From: Sulfurospirillum sp.
GTDB taxonomy: Bacteria; Campylobacterota; Campylobacteria; Campylobacterales; Arcobacteraceae
Reading direction: 5' to 3'
Length of the DNA: 64,000 nucleotides
Assembly (NCBI GenBank): GCA_030491005.1
Contig: JAKZMJ010000001.1
Span: 1-64,000, forward strand
Shown here in pieces: positions 1,248 through 12,354 of the stretch. Both the position numbers and the translations under genes were made by a program. Position 1 is the stretch's first letter; each line of letters starts with the position of its first letter. Below the pieces are notes generated by a model. The model saw nothing but the letters and a program-made list of their open reading frames with translations. It was not told the DNA's origin and ran no database searches.

Positions 1248-2733
1248 GAGCCGACTGCATAATTAAAAAGTACTCATATATCTTATTTTTTCAAATATTT
1301 AAAAAAATCCATCTTCAATAAAATTAGATTCAGTCATTTTTAGGAGCTTTTTTAGTCTATTAAATCTCTTTAGCTCTATATTATTCATCTAACTACTTAT
1401 AATCTTTGTCTTATTTGTCTTTGTCCTAATAATCTAAGATTAGTAGCTATACAGGTAAGGGTAAAATTCATATTATTTCTAACGAGTCCTATAAATTTTG
1501 TAGTTGAGCCTTTCATCTGAGTTTTTATATCTGCAAACCTATGTTCAACTTTAGCTCTAATCTTATGTTTAGGTTTTTCATCTTTTCTTTGCTGCTTAAT
1601 CTGTTCTTGGCTTAGAGTTTGTTTCTCTTTGAGACATACCATATTTTCTATATTTTCACTTTCTAAAAAAGTATCTATATCTTTTGAGTTATATGCTTTA
1701 TCAGCATAAAGAGCTTTCATTCCATCTATATCTTTTACAAATGTTTTTACTGTGTCTATATCGTGAGTATTTGCGAAGGTAGTTTGTTGGGAGATAATAA
1801 TACCACTTTGCTCATCTACTGCTATATGTACTTTATAGCCTTGTGTATATTGTTTTTTTGATGCGTGAAAGCCTATCCTTACTTCACTATCTATTTTATC
1901 TTGATGATTATAGCTATCTTCTTCATTCTTTATAATAATTTGAGAAGTCTTTATATCTTTAGTATCAATACCTTGTAGTGTATCAAGTTGTGCATTCTTG
2001 TATGTCTTGGAGTTATGGGCTTTAGTATTAAGAATTCTTTGAATCTTCTTTTTTGAAGGCTTTTTGGATTGAAGCTCTACTTCAAGTTTTATATTTAACT
2101 CAGCATTTATTGTTTGAATACCTTTCTTGTCTTCTTTGTATACTTCTTTAGTCTTATTTTTTATTTGCGTGTTATCACTTCTAATGAGAGTAGCATCAAT
2201 TAAAACAGATTTTCCTTTTTTAGCTATCAGGTTTTTACTCTCTAATTGTTTATTTACAGAGTTAAATAATTTATCATAAAGTCGGTTCTTGAGTAGGGAA
2301 TTTCTAAATCTACAGATTGTACTCTCGTCTGGTACACTATCCTCTAGGCTAAGTCCTACAAATCTAATAAAGAGTAGGTTTACATAGAGTGCATCTTGGG
2401 TGGCTTGATCAAAGAGATTGTAATACTTCTGGAGTAACAGTACTCTAAACATCAGTACATTATCATAAGCAGGTGCTCCAGCTACATTACTTTTAGCAAT
2501 TCCATTTCTATTTAGTACTGGTCGTAATTTATCAAAGTCTATAATAGAGTCCAACTCTTTAAGAAATGAATTTACTTTTTCTAATCTTGATGTTACTGCT
2601 ATATCTGAAAATGTATTGTTTGTATCTTTAAATGCCACTTTTTACCTCTTCTTAGTGAAGTTATTTTAGCTGAAAAGTGCTTTTAATGCCTTTAAATAGG
2701 TTGCTTTGTTGGATTATACTGTGCAGTGGTCTC
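1248..2733. mobile_element. Complete IS5-like insertion sequence with 5-bp target duplication
   Basis: The element is 1486 bp. Its left end begins GAGCCGACTGCATAAT and its right end, read inward, begins GAGACCACTGCACAGT; twelve of sixteen bases agree, which is typical for terminal inverted repeats. The five bases ATAGC occur immediately outside both ends (1243-1247 and 2734-2738), a clean target-site duplication. It carries a single transposase gene on the minus strand. It landed between a two-gene unit and the quinoprotein-associated cluster, about 115 bases upstream of the first gene of that cluster. Confidence 0.85.
1397..2638 (-). CDS. IS5-family DDE transposase
   Basis: This 413-residue protein catalyses transposition of the surrounding element. 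The N-terminus (about 50-115) has the family's helical domain, with FRVLLLQKYYNL and FVGLSLEDSVPDESTICRFR. The likely catalytic triad is D148 (VLIDATLIRS), D313 (ALYADKAYNS) and E365 (KVEHRFADIK). Between the first two lies a lysine-rich insertion, roughly residues 160-250, that makes the protein longer than many IS5 transposases. The frame is intact and both ends of the element are present, so it could still be active. Confidence 0.9.
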   Translation of the reverse strand: MAFKDTNNTFSDIAVTSRLEKVNSFLKELDSIIDFDKLRPVLNRNGIAKSNVAGAPAYDNVLMFRVLLLQKYYNLFDQATQDALYVNLLFIRFVGLSLEDSVPDESTICRFRNSLLKNRLYDKLFNSVNKQLESKNLIAKKGKSVLIDATLIRSDNTQIKNKTKEVYKEDKKGIQTINAELNIKLEVELQSKKPSKKKIQRILNTKAHNSKTYKNAQLDTLQGIDTKDIKTSQIIIKNEEDSYNHQDKIDSEVRIGFHASKKQYTQGYKVHIAVDEQSGIIISQQTTFANTHDIDTVKTFVKDIDGMKALYADKAYNSKDIDTFLESENIENMVCLKEKQTLSQEQIKQQRKDEKPKHKIRAKVEHRFADIKTQMKGSTTKFIGLVRNNMNFTLTCIATNLRLLGQRQIRQRL

Positions 2734-2816
2734 ATAGCCCTATATTTAACTCATAATTGAAACACACCCAAATTTTTAATTAAACTAAAATTGCTACTTT
2801 AATGCTGTAAACATTT

Positions 2817-2849: not shown

Positions 2850-3998
2850 ATGATAAAAATATTCTTATTTTGTGTAATTAATATCTGTCTTTTTGCAAAC
2901 GAACTTAAAATAAATATTTTGTATTTAGAACAAATTATAAAAAAACCACCTGTTTTATCAAATATAATAGAAGAGCCAACAAGCAGTGGATTAAGTGGGG
3001 CAAAATTAGCTATTAAAGATAGTAATAGAACTGCTAGATTTTTTAATCAAAAATATATTTTAAAAGAAATTGTTTCTAAAGATGAAAATCTTCTAATAAA
3101 AACTTTTGAAGAATTTATCAAAAATAACAATTCTTATGTTTTGTTAAATGTAGAAGATAAATTTTTAAAAAAATTAATTTCACATACACTTGCAAATAAA
3201 GCCTTATTTATAAATGTAGCAAGTACTTCAAGTTCTTTACGAAAAAATATTTGTCAAGATAATTTACTTCATACAATAGCAAGTGATGCTATGTTATACG
3301 ATGGGCTAGTACAATTTTTGATAAAAAGAAATTGGAAAAAATGGCTCTTAATAAGTGGAACAAACAATAAAGATAGAAAAATACAAGAAGCAATAAAAAG
3401 AGCAGCAAAAAGATTTGGGGGAAAAATAATAGATGAAAAAATATGGAGTTCAAATAGTGATATAAGAAGAAAAGCACAAGATGAAATACCATCGTTTACT
3501 CAAAGTAAAGATTATGATGTCGTTCTTGTGGCAGATTATTATGGAGATTTTGGTGAGCATATATATTTTAATACTTGGTTACCACGACCACTTGCTGGAA
3601 CACAAGGTTTAAGACCTGTTACTTGGCATAAAGTTATTGAAGCTTGGGGTGCAGCACAGCTACAAAAAAGATTTGAAAAATTTGCAAATAGATGGATGAA
3701 TTCAAAAGACTATGCTTCTTGGGTGGCTATTAGAACTATTGTTGGTGCTATTTCAAAAACAAAAACAAAAGAACTAAATACTAATATAAAGTTCATTTAT
3801 TCAAAAGATTTTGATTTAGGTGCTTATAAGGGGCGAAAATTAACATATAGAACTTTTAATGGTCAATTAAGACAAGCAATACCACTGGTTCATCCAAGAG
3901 CTTTAGTCTCAACTTCTCCTCAATTTGGTTTTTTACATCAAAAAACAGATCTTGATACTTTAGGTCTTTCTAAATATGAAATATCTTGTATTAAATGA
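2850..3998 (+). CDS. ABC transporter substrate-binding protein of the PQQ-dehydrogenase-associated type
   Basis: This exported 382-residue protein has a signal peptide ending around CLFANE and a branched-chain-amino-acid-type (Peripla_BP_6-like) fold. Features such as GLSGAKLAI, the VHPRALVSTSPQ segment and the ending FLHQKTDLDTLG match the family of binding proteins found next to PQQ-dependent alcohol dehydrogenases (TIGR03863-like). I chose the ATG at 2850 because GGAG sits five bases upstream; an in-frame TTG at 2832 has no ribosome site. Its stop overlaps the next gene by four bases. In better-known clusters this protein accompanies an ABC system of unclear cargo; no cognate permease of that type is seen here. 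Confidence 0.75.
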   Translation: MIKIFLFCVINICLFANELKINILYLEQIIKKPPVLSNIIEEPTSSGLSGAKLAIKDSNRTARFFNQKYILKEIVSKDENLLIKTFEEFIKNNNSYVLLNVEDKFLKKLISHTLANKALFINVASTSSSLRKNICQDNLLHTIASDAMLYDGLVQFLIKRNWKKWLLISGTNNKDRKIQEAIKRAAKRFGGKIIDEKIWSSNSDIRRKAQDEIPSFTQSKDYDVVLVADYYGDFGEHIYFNTWLPRPLAGTQGLRPVTWHKVIEAWGAAQLQKRFEKFANRWMNSKDYASWVAIRTIVGAISKTKTKELNTNIKFIYSKDFDLGAYKGRKLTYRTFNGQLRQAIPLVHPRALVSTSPQFGFLHQKTDLDTLGLSKYEISCIK

Positions 3999-4456
3999 AA
4001 AGAATTTTTATAATTTTTCTCTTATGTGTATCTTTATTTGCTTATGAAAAAAAGCAAAATGATAGATATATAACTTATAATATAAATATATCTTACGATA
4101 ACCTTATGTTTGCCTTATTAGATGAAGTTTCAGCTAGTGGTTTTGTTCTAGCATATCAAGCAAATATATCAAAAAGTTTAAAAAATATATCAAAACTTTT
4201 AAATAAAAAAAATGTATTTATCAATGCCAAAAAAATAGGTTTTTGCAAAAGTTCTTTAAGTTTAGAAATGATGCAAGAAAATCCTAAGAATATGGTATTT
4301 TGTCCTTTATCTTTAGCCATTTATGAAATTAAAAAAAATCATATTGTAATTTTATATCAAAAAATTATTCCATTAAGAAAAGAAGATAAAGTGCTTCTTA
4401 AAATTAATAAAATTATTCCTAAGTTAATAGAAAATTTATTAGACAATATGGAATAA
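3995..4456 (+). CDS. DUF302-like periplasmic protein
   Basis: The protein has 153 residues with an N-terminal signal peptide ending near SLFAYE. The body, with YDNLMFALLDEVSASGFVL followed by NISKSLKNISKLL and a C-terminal block ending in VLLKINKIIPKLIENL, resembles the DUF302 (TT1751-like) fold, whose biochemical role is unknown. It contains two cysteines (KIGFCK and MVFCPLS). It is translationally coupled to the binding-protein gene upstream (ATGA overlap), and DUF302 genes are found in quinoprotein clusters of other proteobacteria. It converges with the ABC ATPase gene that ends 12 bases downstream. Confidence 0.6.
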   Translation: MKRIFIIFLLCVSLFAYEKKQNDRYITYNINISYDNLMFALLDEVSASGFVLAYQANISKSLKNISKLLNKKNVFINAKKIGFCKSSLSLEMMQENPKNMVFCPLSLAIYEIKKNHIVILYQKIIPLRKEDKVLLKINKIIPKLIENLLDNME

Positions 4457-4467
4457 TGACTTAATGA

Positions 4468-5190
4468 TTATTTGTCTAGTTTGCCACTTAAAATATTAGG
4501 AAATATTTTTAAAATATCTTGCTTTTTTTTTCTTGTAATTTCTTCATCAAAAGTTGGTATATTTTTATATTCATATATTATTGATGTAGGCTTATCTTTA
4601 AAAAAAAAGATTTTATTTGACAGAAATAATGCTTCTTCTAAATTATGACTAACTAGTATGATTATGGGTAAATAATGCTTATAAAATTTAAACAACAATT
4701 TTCTTAAAAGTTGTGCATTTGGATAATCTAAGGATACAAAAGGTTCATCTAAAAGTAAAACTTCTGGTTTATTTATAAAAGCCCTTATTATTGCTACTTT
4801 TCTTTTCATACCACCTGATAGTTCTTTTGGATACGCATTTATATACTCTTTTAAACCAACCTCACTTAAAATACTTTCTATTTCTTTCTCATTTTTATTT
4901 ATAGCTATTAATAAAATATTTTCTTTTATACTAAGCCAAGGAATTAACCTTGTATCTTGAAATATATATCCTAGGTTATTTATCTTATTTGTTTTGTATT
5001 TCTTACTGATATATTTTATTTCTCCTCTAAAATCTTCATCTAAAGAAGATATGATTTTTAATAAAGTAGTTTTACCACAACCAGATGGACCAATAAATGA
5101 TATAAACTGTGCTTGTTTTATTTCTATTTTTATATTATTTAAAACATTTATTGCATTAAATTTTTTATTTTCTATGTTTATATCTAACAT
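4468..5190 (-). CDS. ABC transporter ATPase, SsuB/TauB-like
   Basis: This 240-residue cytoplasmic ATPase powers the importer encoded by the next two genes. It has Walker A GPSGCGKTT (about residues 33-41), the Q-loop FQDTRLIPW, the signature LSGGMKRK and Walker B VLLLDEPF followed by the H-loop SHNLEEA. The Q-loop with RLIPW and the overall length match importers of the nitrate/sulfonate/taurine class. It is the last gene of a minus-strand operon, one base after the permease gene. The start ATG has little ribosome-site sequence of its own beyond GGAG in the preceding stop region. Confidence 0.85.
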   Translation of the reverse strand: MLDINIENKKFNAINVLNNIKIEIKQAQFISFIGPSGCGKTTLLKIISSLDEDFRGEIKYISKKYKTNKINNLGYIFQDTRLIPWLSIKENILLIAINKNEKEIESILSEVGLKEYINAYPKELSGGMKRKVAIIRAFINKPEVLLLDEPFVSLDYPNAQLLRKLLFKFYKHYLPIIILVSHNLEEALFLSNKIFFFKDKPTSIIYEYKNIPTFDEEITRKKKQDILKIFPNILSGKLDK

Positions 5191-5191
5191 T

Positions 5192-5938
5192 TTATCTCCA
5201 TTTAGTCATTTTATATTCCAAAGGTTGTAAAATTAAAAACTCTATTAATAAAACAATAATAATAAAAGCAAAAGAATATGCAAAAATAGAAGTTATATCA
5301 AAAAATTGAAAAAACATTGATAGTTGGAAACCTATACCAGAACTTTGTCCTAATAATTCGACTACTAAAACAATTTTCCAAATTAATGACAACCCAGATC
5401 TTGCACTTGCCATTATATAAGGATAAATTTGTGGTAAATATATTTTTTTAAAAGTTATATAAGGAGATAATTTATATATTTTTGCTATTTCTAATAGTTC
5501 ATAGTTTATAGCTTTACAGCCTTCTCTTATCGTTACTATTACAGTTGGAACTTTATTTATAACCACAGCTAGTATGGCTGAAATATCATTTAAACCAAAC
5601 CAAATATAGCATAAGATAATTGTTACAAGTGCAGGAAGATTTAGCCCTAAAATCAATAATGAATCAAGTTTATTATCAATTTCTTTATATCTACCCATTA
5701 AAATACCAAATACAAGTCCTAAAAACATTGCAATAAAAAAAGCGATAAAAACCCTATATAAAGTTATACCTAAATGATAAAATAGTTCATCTTCAAAACT
5801 ATGAAAATATAAAGATATTAAGACATTAACAGGACTTGGCAAAGTATCAGAGTTGATAAGAACACTTAAAAACTGCCATAAAATACAAAGAATAATTAAA
5901 GAAAATAATCTTGATCTTAGTGTTTTATTATTTACCAT
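5192..5938 (-). CDS. ABC transporter permease, SsuC/TauC-like
   Basis: The protein has 248 residues with about six predicted membrane segments, beginning LFSLIILCILWQFLSVLI. The conserved cytoplasmic loop is present near residues 160-185 (EIAKIYKLSPYITFKKIYLP), the site that contacts the ATPase. It forms the membrane channel of a nitrate/sulfonate/taurine-type importer. The start overlaps the end of the binding-protein gene by seven bases, so the three genes are one operon. The substrate cannot be told from the sequence. Confidence 0.85.
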   Translation of the reverse strand: MVNNKTLRSRLFSLIILCILWQFLSVLINSDTLPSPVNVLISLYFHSFEDELFYHLGITLYRVFIAFFIAMFLGLVFGILMGRYKEIDNKLDSLLILGLNLPALVTIILCYIWFGLNDISAILAVVINKVPTVIVTIREGCKAINYELLEIAKIYKLSPYITFKKIYLPQIYPYIMASARSGLSLIWKIVLVVELLGQSSGIGFQLSMFFQFFDITSIFAYSFAFIIIVLLIEFLILQPLEYKMTKWR

Positions 5939-6903
5939 ATAATATTTGGATTAAAATCCCAAAAGGTTCCATTTTCTAGTGTTTTACTTTTTCCAACAAG
6001 TTTAGAACCTCCTACTTTTGCTAAAATATTAAAGATTTTTTTTGCAGCCTCTTTTTCATTTTTGGAAAACTTTTTTGGAATACCAGCTTTATATCCATCA
6101 ATTAAAGCTTCAAAAGTATTCTTATCTTTTGCTTTCATAAGATGTCTTATTTTATTCCATTCATCTGGTTTAGTATTTAAAATCTTTTTTGTTTCATATG
6201 AAGCTTGCAGAAATGAATTAATCAGTTCTTTGTTTTTTAAAGCAAATTTTTCTCTAAATACCCAACCAATTAAAGGAATATCGTATTTAATACCAAACTC
6301 ATTTAACATAGTTTTCATTGAAAGTATTTCTATCATACCTTTTGAGCGTAATTTTGCATTAAAATGCCAGAAATTGATAGCTCCTTTTATAGAAGAGTCT
6401 AATACTTTTCTATTTAAAATAGGAGGCGATGCAAATACAGGCTTTATGATATCTTTAAAATCTTTATTATATTTTAATTTACTATAAGCTCTCATAATTA
6501 GCCAAGTTTTACTAACAGGACCTCCTGAAATACCAATTTTATGATTTTTTAAATCTAATATTGAATTTATTTTTAGTTCAGGTCTAATATATAAACCACC
6601 AGTTGCTTTTGAATAAGGATAATAAGTAAAATCAGCACCAGATGCTCTTTGTCTTGAAACCCAAATAAAATCACTAACAATCACATCTACGGTTCTAGCT
6701 TGTAAAGCAATTGAAACTGCATTTTTAGAGGCTAGTTTTTTAATTTCAATTTTTATACCATATTTTAATGGAAGTTTATTATTTTGCATAGCTTGAAGTT
6801 CCCAATTAACAGTTCCAAAAGCTAAAACACCAATTTTTAATGTTTGTAAGGCATAGATATTAACAGTAAATATACAAAGTGTAAGTAAATAAAATAATTT
6901 CAT
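5932..6903 (-). CDS. ABC transporter periplasmic binding protein, SsuA/TauA-like
   Basis: This 323-residue exported protein has a signal peptide ending around NIYALQ, then LKIGVLAFGTVNWELQAM, typical of the NMT1/SsuA-like fold that binds small organic or oxyanion solutes. The motif DVIVSDFIWVSRQR (about residues 74-87) and GGLYIRPEL lie in the expected hinge region. It is the first gene of the importer operon and is transcribed from a promoter inside the inverted repeat at 6943-6997. Its divergent placement against quinoprotein-associated genes suggests a shared substrate or signal, which is inference. Confidence 0.8.
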   Translation of the reverse strand: MKLFYLLTLCIFTVNIYALQTLKIGVLAFGTVNWELQAMQNNKLPLKYGIKIEIKKLASKNAVSIALQARTVDVIVSDFIWVSRQRASGADFTYYPYSKATGGLYIRPELKINSILDLKNHKIGISGGPVSKTWLIMRAYSKLKYNKDFKDIIKPVFASPPILNRKVLDSSIKGAINFWHFNAKLRSKGMIEILSMKTMLNEFGIKYDIPLIGWVFREKFALKNKELINSFLQASYETKKILNTKPDEWNKIRHLMKAKDKNTFEALIDGYKAGIPKKFSKNEKEAAKKIFNILAKVGGSKLVGKSKTLENGTFWDFNPNIIW

Positions 6904-6942
6904 ATTTATTCTCCTGAGATTCTTTAAATATTATATGAATAT

Positions 6943-6997
6943 TTTATAGCCTCATTATAGCATTTATGTTTAAGTGGTGCTATAATGAGGCTATAAA
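6943..6997. promoter_or_regulatory. Perfect 20-bp inverted repeat with back-to-back promoters
   Basis: The arms 6943-6962 and 6978-6997 are exact reverse complements, with a 15-base spacer. Each arm contains TGCTATAAT reading outward (TATAAT at 6981-6986 on the plus strand and at 6954-6959 on the minus strand), so each arm supplies a -10 box for one of the divergent genes. The -35 position of the rightward promoter falls on the -10 box of the leftward one, so the two would compete or respond together to one regulator. Similarity between the arms continues loosely outward, each side having a second TATAAT. Confidence 0.75.
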
Positions 6998-7036
6998 GAA
7001 TATGTATAATAGAAAAAGTAAATATAAAGGTGAAAG

Positions 7037-7447
7037 ATGAAGAATATTAAAAAAGGTTTTTTAATACTTGTGCTTGGTGTAACATTTGGTTTTTCTCATG
7101 GAGATGTAGTACCTCAATCTGTAGATACTAAAGGTTTAAAAAAAGTAGATCAAAATCTAATAGTAAATCCATATAGAGAAAATAAACTAGCAGTTAAAAT
7201 TGGAAAATCAGGCTACAACTCAAACTGTGCTAGATGTCATGGTTTAGGTGCCATTTCAGGAGGAATTGCACCAGATTTAAGAGAACTAACTGCAAATGAT
7301 GATGAACTAGATGAATACTTTATAGGCATTGTAAAAAGTGGAGTTGTTAGAAATGGCAATGTATATATGCCTCCTTTTAAAAAGATTTTATCTGCTGAAG
7401 CAATTTGGTCTATAAGAACTTGGATACAAACTATTCCAGCTGATTAA
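7037..7447 (+). CDS. Cytochrome c-550, PedF-like
   Basis: This 136-residue periplasmic mono-haem cytochrome has a signal peptide (residues 1 to about 20, ending FGFS), the haem site CARCH (C64, C67, H68) and a likely methionine ligand in VYMPPF (M111). The opening HGDVVPQSVDTKGL and the stretch GLGAISGGIAPDLR are characteristic of PedF, the electron acceptor of quinoprotein ethanol dehydrogenase in Pseudomonas. It would pass electrons from a PQQ enzyme to the respiratory chain. A clear AAAGGTG ribosome site precedes the ATG. It is the first gene of the rightward operon; the next gene starts two bases after its stop. Confidence 0.85.
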   Translation: MKNIKKGFLILVLGVTFGFSHGDVVPQSVDTKGLKKVDQNLIVNPYRENKLAVKIGKSGYNSNCARCHGLGAISGGIAPDLRELTANDDELDEYFIGIVKSGVVRNGNVYMPPFKKILSAEAIWSIRTWIQTIPAD

Positions 7448-7448
7448 T

Positions 7449-8312
7449 ATGAAAATAATTATTCTTACAATATGTATATTTCTTTCAAGTGTTTTTTCAA
7501 GATCACTTGATGAAATACAAAATGAAAAAAATATTATAATTGCAGTTTATGAAAACTTTCCTCCTTATTCATATATACAAAATGGTATTGTTAAAGGAAT
7601 TGATGTTGATATTGCAAAGAAAATAGCCAAAAAATTAAATGTAAAAATACAATGGTATTGGGTCAGATCTGATGAGAACTTAGAAGATGACTTACGAAAT
7701 GTGATTTGGAAGGGTAGTCTAATCCATAAAACAAAAGCAGATCTTATGTTTAGAGTTCCTTACGACTATGATTTTATTCGTCAAACAGATAAATCAACAG
7801 GCGAGCTTAGCAATGAACTTAGTGTTATGAAATCTCCATATCATACTGAAAGATGGGTAATACTAACTAATAAAAAAGTAATTCCAAGTATTAAAAATCT
7901 TGCAATATTTAAATACCATACAATTGGGGTTGAAATAGATACTTTACCTGATTCATATTTAGGTACTTCTTTTAAGGGAGTTTTACAAGCTAATATAAAA
8001 CACTATAGAAATATGAAAGATGCCGTAAAAGATTTTAAACTTGGTAAAGTTGATGCTCTTGCAGGATTAAAAACGCAATTAGAGTTTTATTTAGATGTTT
8101 CTAAGAATAAAGACAAATACTATATGAGTAGAAAAATAGGTTATGCCAGATCAAAATGGGATTTAGGAGTGGCTGTTAGAACAGATTTTAGAGCCTTGTC
8201 TTATGAAATAGATGGACAAATTGAAGACTTATATAAAAAAGGTGAAATTAAAAAGATTTTTTTGAAGTATGGTGTTTCATACGAAAAACCTCTTGCATAT
8301 CAAGATAACTAA
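7449..8312 (+). CDS. Family-3 solute-binding protein associated with quinoprotein dehydrogenases (MoxJ/XoxJ-like)
   Basis: This 287-residue exported protein has a signal peptide ending at VFSRSL, then IIIAVYENFPPYSYIQNG, the standard opening of family-3 (SBP_bac_3) periplasmic proteins. WYWVRSDENLEDDLR and the RVPYDYDFIR segment resemble the subfamily encoded beside PQQ-dependent dehydrogenases (TIGR03871-like, related to MoxJ/XoxJ). In methanol oxidisers such proteins help mature or couple the dehydrogenase and are not transport proteins. No ABC partner is adjacent on this strand. It lies between the PedF-like cytochrome and the SoxYZ-like carrier. Confidence 0.75.
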   Translation: MKIIILTICIFLSSVFSRSLDEIQNEKNIIIAVYENFPPYSYIQNGIVKGIDVDIAKKIAKKLNVKIQWYWVRSDENLEDDLRNVIWKGSLIHKTKADLMFRVPYDYDFIRQTDKSTGELSNELSVMKSPYHTERWVILTNKKVIPSIKNLAIFKYHTIGVEIDTLPDSYLGTSFKGVLQANIKHYRNMKDAVKDFKLGKVDALAGLKTQLEFYLDVSKNKDKYYMSRKIGYARSKWDLGVAVRTDFRALSYEIDGQIEDLYKKGEIKKIFLKYGVSYEKPLAYQDN

Positions 8313-8326
8313 TTAAAGGAGTTTTT

Positions 8327-9079
8327 ATGTTTCAAAGTATTTTTTCTAAATTATTTATGCTGTTACTTGTTCAAACATTTTTATTTTCAAATGCAGATCC
8401 CTTAGAGTCACCCATGTGGGATTATGTTAAAAAGAAATTTTTACAAAATGAAAAAACAGTTTTTGATACAAAAAATATAAAAATCAAAGTTCCATCTTTT
8501 GCAGACAATCCTTTACAAGTTCCTATTTATGTAGATGCTAGTTATTTTAAAGATGCACAAAGACTTTTTATATTTGCTGATTTAAATGCAATAATTCCTT
8601 TAATAGATATACAACTATTAGAACTTAAACCTATAGTATCTGTAAATATGAAAATAGCTCAAGGTACACCTTTAAGGGTTGCTGTAAAAGATAAAAATGG
8701 TTTATGGCATATAGGAAGTAGTGAAATTAAAAGTTTTGGAGGAGGGTGTTCAGTTGCAAGTAATGCAGGTGGCTTAATAGATTGGGAGTCTCAAATAGGA
8801 AAATCTAAACACAAAATTTTTAAAATAAAAGACACGTATAGAATAAAACTATCTATTTTTCACCCTATGGATACAGGACTTTTTATAGGAAATCCTGAGT
8901 TTTATATAAATAAAATCAATATAAAACAAAACAATAAAATCATAGCCAAGATTAAAACATATGCTTCTATTAGTGAAAATCCAAGACTTGTATTTGAAAC
9001 AAATAAAGGAAATGGAAAATATGAAATTAATTTAAGTGATACAGATGGAAATGAATTTATTGTAAAAACAAAATATTAA
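8327..9079 (+). CDS. Quinoprotein-associated SoxYZ-like fused carrier protein
   Basis: This 250-residue exported protein joins a SoxY-like N-terminal half to a SoxZ-like C-terminal half. The join carries the motif SFGGGCSVAS with C141, equivalent to the GGCG swinging-arm cysteine of SoxY that carries sulfur intermediates. The C-terminal half has HPMDTGL and the FYINKINI/NDGNEF-type SoxZ strands. The fused form belongs to TIGR04557-like proteins that occur with PQQ dehydrogenases instead of the Sox pathway; the cargo is unknown. A ribosome site AAAGGAG precedes the ATG. Confidence 0.8.
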   Translation: MFQSIFSKLFMLLLVQTFLFSNADPLESPMWDYVKKKFLQNEKTVFDTKNIKIKVPSFADNPLQVPIYVDASYFKDAQRLFIFADLNAIIPLIDIQLLELKPIVSVNMKIAQGTPLRVAVKDKNGLWHIGSSEIKSFGGGCSVASNAGGLIDWESQIGKSKHKIFKIKDTYRIKLSIFHPMDTGLFIGNPEFYINKINIKQNNKIIAKIKTYASISENPRLVFETNKGNGKYEINLSDTDGNEFIVKTKY

Positions 9080-9088
9080 GGATATGAA

Positions 9089-9994
9089 ATGAGATATATA
9101 TTATTATTGTTTTTTCTAACATCATTATTTTCTAAAGAATTTGATTTTAATTTAAAAGTTTTAAAGATAGCTCCTAACACTTATTTTGTTGAAGGTAAAA
9201 AAGAATACTTTTCACAAAACAATGGTGGAGATATAGCTAATTCATCTTTTATTGTAAGCAATGATGGTGTTTTAGTAATAGATACAGGAAGTTCATATAT
9301 TTATGGTAAGCAATTATTAAAAGAAATTAGAAAAATAACAAATAAACCCATAAAGTATGTTATAAATACACATCATCATCCTGACCATTTTTTAGGTAAT
9401 CAAGCTTTTAGAGGTGCTATTATAATGGCTAGTAAATATACAAAAGATTATATTAGTAAACACGGTGATGAATATATAACTAACCTTGTAAATATTGTTC
9501 AATATGCTATGAAGGACACAGAAGTTTTAGCACCAAATAAAGTATTAAATTCAAAATATATTAACTTAGGAAAGCATAAATTAAAAATATTATATTTAAA
9601 CGGACACACACAAGATGACCTTGTGCTATATGATCAATACACAGGTGTTCTTTTTGTATCTGATTTAATATTTTATAATAGAGCAGCTGCAACTCCTCAT
9701 GCAAATATAAAACAATGGATAAAAACTTTAAATAAATTAAAAGAAATTCCATATAAACTTTTAGTTTCTGGACATGGAGAAGTAAGTAAGAGTAAAAAAC
9801 CAATTATTCAGATGATTTCTTATTTAAAATATCTTGATAATATTTTAAAGGTAAGTTCAAAAAAAGGTTTAGGTGTTTATGAAATATTAGAAATAAAAAA
9901 ACCAAAAGAATTTAAAGATATTTTTATGTTAGATGAAGAATTTGAAAGATCTATTATTAATTTGTATCCAAAATATGAAGATAAAGTAGAATAA
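9089..9994 (+). CDS. Quinoprotein relay system zinc metallohydrolase (type 1)
   Basis: This 301-residue metallo-beta-lactamase-fold hydrolase is exported by a signal peptide ending near SLFSKE. Metal ligands are visible: HxHxDH at H95, H97, D99, H100 (NTHHHPDHFLGNQAF), then H173 (NGHTQDD), D192 (VSDLIF) and H229 (SGHGE). The phrase NNGGDIANSSFIV with VIDTGSS matches the SoxH-related 'quinoprotein relay' subfamily (TIGR04558-like). Together with the SoxYZ-like carrier it implies a periplasmic thiol-relay step whose chemistry is not established. It closes the five-gene-long cluster; the following phzF-like gene begins 42 bases on. Confidence 0.8.
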   Translation: MRYILLLFFLTSLFSKEFDFNLKVLKIAPNTYFVEGKKEYFSQNNGGDIANSSFIVSNDGVLVIDTGSSYIYGKQLLKEIRKITNKPIKYVINTHHHPDHFLGNQAFRGAIIMASKYTKDYISKHGDEYITNLVNIVQYAMKDTEVLAPNKVLNSKYINLGKHKLKILYLNGHTQDDLVLYDQYTGVLFVSDLIFYNRAAATPHANIKQWIKTLNKLKEIPYKLLVSGHGEVSKSKKPIIQMISYLKYLDNILKVSSKKGLGVYEILEIKKPKEFKDIFMLDEEFERSIINLYPKYEDKVE

Positions 9995-11811: not shown

Positions 11812-12069
11812 ATGGCAGTTAAAATTACAGATACATGTATCAATTGCGATGCATGTTTAGATGAGTGTCCAACAGAGTCAATAGTTGATAATGATGAAAA
11901 TCCTCAAGGTGAAGATATATATTATGTAAATCCAGCTACATGTACAGAATGTGTTGGTGATAATGATGAACCAGCTTGTGCCGAAGCCTGTCCTACTGAA
12001 GGTTGTATTGTTTGGGATAGTCCAACTACACAAGGTGCTGTAAATGGCGAACCTTGTGTTGAAGAATAA
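11812..12069 (+). CDS. fdxA: Ferredoxin with two [4Fe-4S] clusters
   Basis: This 85-residue protein has two cysteine motifs, CINCDACLDECP (residues 9-20) and CTECVGDNDEPACAEACP, in the YfhL/FdxA arrangement where the second motif has a longer loop. It is very acidic. It is a small soluble electron carrier; in Campylobacter jejuni the equivalent divergent gene is iron-induced and supports aerotolerance. A strong AAAAAGGAAATG ribosome site is present. A paralogue starts 24 bases downstream. Confidence 0.88.
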   Translation: MAVKITDTCINCDACLDECPTESIVDNDENPQGEDIYYVNPATCTECVGDNDEPACAEACPTEGCIVWDSPTTQGAVNGEPCVEE

Positions 12070-12093
12070 AATATAGACTATAAAGGGAAATGA

Positions 12094-12354
12094 ATGGCAG
12101 TTAAAATTACAAATGTTTGTATAAATTGTGATGCTTGTTTAAGTGAATGTCCAAGCAACTCAATAATAAATAACATTGAGAATGAAAATGAAGACGATAT
12201 ATATTTTGTTGAACAAAGTACTTGTACTGAGTGTATAGGTGATTTTGAACATCCAGCTTGTGTACAAGTTTGCCCTGTTGTTAAATGTATAGTTTGGGAT
12301 AATCCTAATACTGAAGGAAAGATTGATGGAACAGATTGTTATGAAGAAAGTTAA
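12094..12354 (+). CDS. Second FdxA-type ferredoxin (tandem paralogue)
   Basis: This 86-residue protein aligns end to end with the ferredoxin just upstream: the same MAVKIT opening, CINCDACLSECP and CTECIGDFEHPACVQVCP. All cluster cysteines are kept, so it should fold two [4Fe-4S] clusters. The loop sequences and the residues after the second motif differ (PVVKCIVW against PTEGCIVW). It has its own AAAGGGAAATG ribosome site. The pair arose by tandem duplication and may differ in redox potential or partner. Confidence 0.85.
   Translation: MAVKITNVCINCDACLSECPSNSIINNIENENEDDIYFVEQSTCTECIGDFEHPACVQVCPVVKCIVWDNPNTEGKIDGTDCYEES

Follow-up and report, generated by a model that had tools for sequence, protein, structure and literature searches.

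Genes at the locus

The stretch analysed here (the window) is the first 64,000 nucleotides of contig C1 (JAKZMJ010000001.1) in the draft assembly of Sulfurospirillum sp. GCA_030491005.1 (2.69 Mb, 33 contigs), assigned by GTDB to the Arcobacteraceae, and our subject is a run of genes at 2850–9994 that encodes accessory proteins of pyrroloquinoline quinone (PQQ) enzymes. A preliminary description, made from the letters of the window, had recognised six such families with an importer in their middle, and family profile searches of the window proteins located every one of them there. The run opens on the plus strand with a PedA1/LutA-type periplasmic binding protein of a lanthanide ATP-binding cassette (ABC) transporter (2850–3998; TIGR03863 PQQ_ABC_bind, 420 bits, cut-off 413.6) and a DUF302 protein (3995–4456, plus strand), which is kept in the cluster of relatives. 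Three minus-strand genes then encode a putative PQQ importer: the ATPase of a PqqT-linked ABC system (4468–5190), a BPD_transp_1 permease (5192–5938), and a binding protein of the PqqT family (5932–6903), which domain models call NMT1/SsuA-like. The plus strand resumes with the PedF cytochrome c550, carrying one CxxCH (7037–7447; TIGR04494, 171 bits, cut-off 122), a family-3 periplasmic binding protein in the PedG/MxaJ position, a putative dehydrogenase maturation protein (7449–8312), a fused SoxYZ-like carrier of the PP_2677 type (8327–9079; TIGR04557, 155 bits, cut-off 140), and the SoxH-like relay metallohydrolase 1 of the PP_2678 type (9089–9994; TIGR04558, 359 bits, cut-off 300). The SoxYZ fusion has a single conserved cysteine in an internal GGGC motif and fails the model for true SoxY of Sox thiosulfate oxidation (TIGR04488, 47.5 bits against a cut-off of 125); the metallohydrolase has the HHHPDH zinc motif. 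The set is not a chance grouping, because its gene order and strands are kept in many related genomes.

As the preliminary description had stated, the window itself has no PQQ dehydrogenase, and no pqq gene either: all above-cut-off matches of the genome are on contig C15. We conclude that the window very probably holds the accessory half of one split PedH/ExaF-type periplasmic alcohol-oxidation system, with its other half on C15 and a PqqT-type importer that would recapture PQQ.

The missing half on contig C15

Contig C15 (496 kb) carries the propeller, PedB, PedC, PQQ alcohol dehydrogenase, pqqB, pqqC, pqqD, and pqqE genes in a single run, again identified by family profile searches. The dehydrogenase (C15, 119445–121013) scores 770.9 bits with TIGR03075 (cut-off 480), pqqE (C15, 123239–124300) scores 460.9 bits, and pqqB, pqqC, and pqqD exceed their curated cut-offs; the pqqA precursor, of 24 residues with an E-x3-Y motif, lies between the dehydrogenase and pqqB (locus L003, 13153). 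The enzyme is thus elsewhere in the genome, one of the two outcomes that the preliminary description had considered, and it is accompanied by the complete pqqABCDE set and by transporter genes: a PedA2-type propeller (TIGR03866, 501 bits, cut-off 287), a PedC permease (TIGR03861, 332 bits, cut-off 241), and PedB. In Pseudomonas putida, the lanthanide transporter consists of PedA1 (binding protein), PedA2 (propeller), PedB, and PedC, and is required for growth with nanomolar lanthanum (PMC6839425). The TIGR03863 protein of the window is the binding protein of such a transporter, whose PedA2-PedB-PedC partners lie on C15.

Among solved structures, the C15 dehydrogenase best matches P. putida PedH, which is lanthanide-dependent (6zcw, 844 bits); the calcium-dependent ExaA (1flg, 692) and XoxF (352) score lower. 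The metal-ligand residue, two after the catalytic aspartate, is aspartate (PHDGWDYDG) as in PedH (PHDGWDFDG), whereas ExaA has serine (PNDAWDFSG), and the enzyme carries adjacent cysteines in a CCDV motif. Among 104 genomes of the Arcobacteraceae-type family, 31 have a TIGR03075 match: WD[FY]D was found in every short dehydrogenase read and WDFS in every long one. Four genomes spanning three genera have only the long, calcium-type form (G017, G030, G033, and G057), and G083, G090, and G092 have a long dehydrogenase as a second copy; the G022 enzyme, cut by a contig end before the diagnostic residue, was counted as short by similarity. Lanthanide-type systems occur in 27 of the 104 genomes and, in a 397-genome sample of the phylum, also in two from another family of the order. 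On these residues and matches, the C15 dehydrogenase is probably of the PedH/ExaF type and would use a lanthanide.

Other genes adjoin the calcium-type dehydrogenases. A pentapeptide-repeat, PedD-like protein of 231–234 residues (domain checked on the L068 copy) follows the WDFS dehydrogenase at L068 (5164–5865), L084 (14344–15036), L085 (4451–5152), and L086 (10808–11503). PedB/PedC-like genes (58–69%) adjoin calcium-type dehydrogenases in genomes without PedA1 (L085, 7838–9351; L112, 13529–14721), hinting at a different role.

An ancestral cluster and its break

At least 16 other genomes of the family have the two halves side by side. There, the genes run pqqEDCB, alcohol dehydrogenase, PedC, PedB, and propeller, pointing away from PedA1-DUF302; next comes the importer, on the opposite strand, and after it PedF, the family-3 protein, SoxYZ, and the hydrolase. 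The same order is found in G389, from another family of the order. Some contiguous clusters contain inserted genes, and those of G066, G091, and G094 lack DUF302, SoxYZ, and the hydrolase. With its halves adjoining in relatives, what the preliminary description had framed as an orphan set is in substance an ordinary split cluster, and every one of its components is already known.

In the window genome, the break coincides with the divergent promoter between propeller and PedA1. An insertion sequence (IS) of 1.49 kb (1248–2734, minus strand; DDE_Tnp_1/DUF772 transposase at 1397–2638) has its edge approximately 115 bp upstream of PedA1, the first gene of the system. Its borders were defined by comparison among copies, a repeat search having found no inverted repeats at its ends. 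It is 99.4–99.8% identical to the five other copies compared, and both C1 and C15 are among the contigs that carry the nearly identical full transposase copies, of which the genome has at least 12. The cluster was plausibly broken by recombination at one of these many copies. In G041, a fragmented metagenome-assembled genome of the same genus, the blocks are rearranged in another way: PedA1-DUF302 follows mnmE, downstream of pqqCDE, and the SoxYZ block lies on another contig beside a histidine kinase. Since both genomes are rearranged, each differently, the genus of the window has broken up the ancestral cluster.

Relatives show further variation around these genes. In many, a DUF411 protein of 132–135 residues comes directly after the importer ATPase (L067, 10843–11241, and equivalents; domain assignment checked on the L067 copy), and it is absent from the cluster of the window genome. 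G024 has pqqC-like (60%) and pqqE-like (65%) genes, with several unidentified genes, between the dehydrogenase and pqqB (L110, 8015–11888; L119, 2–736), possibly a second PQQ-like peptide pathway; a pqqC-like gene is present in G019 too. Farther along the window, at 11812–12354, lie two adjoining ferredoxin-like genes, of 85 and 86 residues, which are highly similar to one another.

A direct repeat shared by both halves

Comparison of upstream regions revealed a 17-bp direct repeat, GCTATAATnAnGCTATA, with an 11-bp period, mostly some 50–70 bp ahead of the start codon. Exact copies stand in 24 of 24 importer and 28 of 29 PedF upstream regions, two counts that are not independent, the regions overlapping. 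Within three mismatches, it precedes PedA1 (25/25), the alcohol dehydrogenase (29/30), and the propeller (19/26), against about 4–11% in shuffled sequence, and it stays at the shuffle level ahead of the operon-internal pqqB, SoxYZ, and PedB. A genome-wide scan of 8 genomes gave 51 matches, and the reversed pattern gave 4.

The window has exact copies, GCTATAATGAGGCTATA, upstream of the importer (6945–6961, minus strand) and of PedF (6979–6995, plus strand). A diverged copy with three mismatches lies upstream of the PedA1/LutA-type gene (2793–2809, plus strand) at the orthologous position, supported by 24 orthologues; not significant by sequence alone in this genome, it counts through its position only. 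Because a scan of the window allowing up to three mismatches is at chance level (20 matches against 17.1 by chance), sites were accepted only if exact, with one mismatch, or at an orthologous position. All four genome-wide matches in the window genome lie ahead of genes of the system: the importer, PedF, the propeller (C15, 116677), and a 498-residue aldehyde dehydrogenase (C15, 7754). The two halves share this putative regulatory site, and the repeat defines a predicted single regulon.

In several other genomes, the aldehyde dehydrogenase site is found between that gene and genes for a histidine kinase with a FIST domain and a response regulator of the OmpR type (L174, 4468–6381 and 3812–4471; matching places in L175–L178). 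Roseobacter plasmids have a FIST protein, a PAS-domain protein, and a response regulator adjoining their dehydrogenase. The FIST-domain kinase and the OmpR-type regulator are plausible candidates for regulators acting on the repeat.

Identity and distribution of the importer

A search of the PDB with the importer binding protein gave PqqT (9b1u/9b1v/9ooz) at E = 1e-45 over residues 20–318 (299 residues, 29% identity), the next family reaching only 4e-4. PqqT of Methylorubrum extorquens binds PQQ with a Kd of 50 nM (PMC12124388), and the crystal structure 9B1V holds it with PQQ and Gd(III). From Campylobacterota to rhizobia, many residues of the binding protein do not vary, the lysine of a GGxxxKxW loop among them. 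An AlphaFold model built with 4 sequences was poor (predicted local distance difference test score 56.7, predicted template modelling score 0.46) and was not used. Because of the match to PqqT at this E value, the most likely role of the transporter, as judged from homology, is PQQ recapture and not uptake of a separate oxidation substrate; inward transport, with PQQ as cargo, is predicted.

The binding protein is present in 26 of 27 genomes with an Asp-type dehydrogenase, in none of the four with the Ser type only, and in none of the 73 with neither (Fisher 1.2e-23, uncorrected for shared ancestry); the Asp-type exception is the fragmented G041, and the Ser-only G030 is a single contig. PedA1 is similarly distributed (23/27, 0/4, and 0/73). 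Outside the phylum, plasmids of the Alphaproteobacteria Sinorhizobium, Ruegeria, Mameliella, Sagittula, Azospirillum, Phaeobacter, Sulfitobacter, and Pseudosulfitobacter carry homologues at 35–42% identity, always in a cluster of the xoxF5 or pedH type that also has the PedA1 and propeller genes. In Rhizobium gallicum, no dehydrogenase lies within 12 kb of the importer. On a plasmid of the haloarchaeon Natrinema (L142), a PQQ-dehydrogenase-like gene with WDYD is less than 5 kb away from one for a distant importer-like binding protein (23%). The importer tracks the lanthanide enzyme, although the calcium enzyme also needs PQQ.

Proposed mechanism

In the system that we propose, the dehydrogenase, with PQQ and probably a lanthanide, would oxidise short alcohols in the periplasm and pass its electrons to the PedF cytochrome c550. 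PedA1 from the window, together with PedA2-PedB-PedC from C15, would carry the lanthanide into the cytoplasm, and the PqqT-type ABC importer would recapture PQQ. The family-3 protein and the SoxYZ/SoxH pair may help to mature or protect the dehydrogenase with its adjacent cysteines, and the co-regulated aldehyde dehydrogenase, farther along C15, would complete the oxidation. In the ped cluster, PedF reoxidises the quinoprotein and PedG-like proteins have been proposed to aid cofactor insertion, while SoxYZ/SoxH are associated with enzymes that have adjacent cysteines, in a role as yet unproven (PMC12997753). Ancestrally a single cluster, the system was broken in the divergent promoter that lies between PedA1 and the propeller.

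Several observations weigh against this account. The family-3 protein fails the MoxJ-like model TIGR03871 (28.8 bits against a cut-off of 212), so that its PedG/MxaJ assignment comes from its position beside PedF only. PedB of C15 scores 271 bits with TIGR03864, below the cut-off of 302, though this is by far its best family and its position is right. The importer was not found in the fragmented G041. The genome yielded no TonB Plug domain and therefore lacks an outer-membrane receptor of the LutH/PqqU kind. Finally, the two halves are on different contigs of a draft assembly, and the place of the split beside an IS is a correlation.

Alternative explanations

The grouping of a SoxYZ-like carrier, a metallohydrolase, and a cytochrome in a window without a dehydrogenase had led the preliminary description to consider an independent oxidation on a thiol carrier, with substrate uptake of its own and serving no quinoprotein. 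This we regard as very improbable and have rejected: the fused SoxYZ is found in 20 of the 27 lanthanide-type and all four calcium-only genomes and in none of the 73 without a PQQ dehydrogenase, and the genome has a separate soxY/soxZ locus at C15, 183644. The regulatory repeat common to both halves and the PqqT type of the importer point the same way. It is scarcely more probable that C1 and C15 derive from different genomes through contamination or misassembly. The assembly is a draft in 33 contigs with 3.4% contamination; against this, genes of both halves have counterparts of 84–96% identity in G041 (PedA1 91%, alcohol dehydrogenase 93%), C1 and C15 carry near-identical IS copies, and the repeat is on both contigs.

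The cargo of the importer leaves more room for doubt. Its NMT1/SsuA-like domain models and its identity of just 29% to PqqT would suit another organic substrate, such as a sulfonate, taurine, a nitrate-like compound, or the alcohol, but the PDB search returned PqqT with no sulfonate-, taurine-, or nitrate-binding protein, the residues conserved as far as rhizobia include the GGxxxKxW lysine, and the importer genes sit in PQQ-enzyme clusters almost throughout; such a substrate is unlikely, and with it a sulfonate or nitrate importer as the family names suggest. We hold it equally unlikely that the importer recovers PQQ as a lanthanide complex, PQQ doubling as a lanthanophore, or takes up another lanthanophore, and so provides a second route of lanthanide acquisition. 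A lanthanide–PQQ cargo would account for the association of the importer with lanthanide-type rather than calcium-type dehydrogenases, seen from Campylobacterota, where the calcium-only genomes need PQQ too, to the xoxF5 or DYD-type clusters of roseobacters and rhizobia, and the PqqT crystal contains Gd(III) along with PQQ. Set against this, the calcium-only genomes number four, with shared ancestry uncorrected, and PedA1A2BC already covers lanthanide uptake. An importer carrying a lanthanide alone was demoted after the match to PqqT. Recapture of PQQ within the split alcohol-oxidation system is the reading that we prefer.

Significance and comparison with known systems

The orphan relay set is thereby explained and ordinary, and its interest lies in where it is found. 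A complete lanthanide-type quinoprotein alcohol-oxidation system is placed in Campylobacterota, where such systems are little described, as the preliminary description had remarked: our literature search found no report of a lanthanide or PQQ alcohol dehydrogenase native to Arcobacter or Campylobacterota, which, with subscription papers not covered, is weak evidence of absence. The NMT1-like importer of such clusters gains a likely identity, that of a PqqT-type transporter for PQQ recapture, sharply linked to the lanthanide enzyme. If PQQ import is indeed tied to lanthanide acquisition, this would bear on how bacteria without LutH obtain lanthanides.

The closest counterpart is the ped cluster of P. 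putida KT2440 (PedH, PedF, PedG, PedA1A2BC, the PP_2677 SoxYZ, the PP_2678 SoxH, and PedI), which has the same Asp-ligand type of enzyme, lanthanide transporter set, cytochrome, SoxYZ/SoxH pair, and co-regulated aldehyde dehydrogenase. Unlike it, the system of the window genome is split over two loci and adds the PqqT-type ABC importer and DUF302; most of the dehydrogenase-bearing genomes have the lanthanide enzyme only, in place of a PedE/PedH pair, and the promoters carry a conserved direct repeat. In the lut cluster of M. extorquens AM1, LutA is the counterpart of PedA1, and LutE and LutF are those of PedB and PedC; the window genome differs in having no detected TonB receptor (LutH), which P. 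putida and S. meliloti likewise lack, and an ethanol-type dehydrogenase instead of XoxF. PqqT of M. extorquens (PDB 9B1U/9B1V) is homologous across the whole mature importer binding protein, whereas the window protein, at 29% identity, has a permease and an ATPase of its own beside it and is preceded by the regulatory repeat. The xoxF5/pedH clusters of roseobacters, rhizobia, and Azospirillum combine PedA1A2BC and a PqqT-type importer beside a lanthanide-type dehydrogenase in the same way, but with a different gene order, an enzyme of the xoxF5 or pedH type, and the SoxYZ partner and pqq genes arranged otherwise; the importer is annotated there as a generic ABC transporter.

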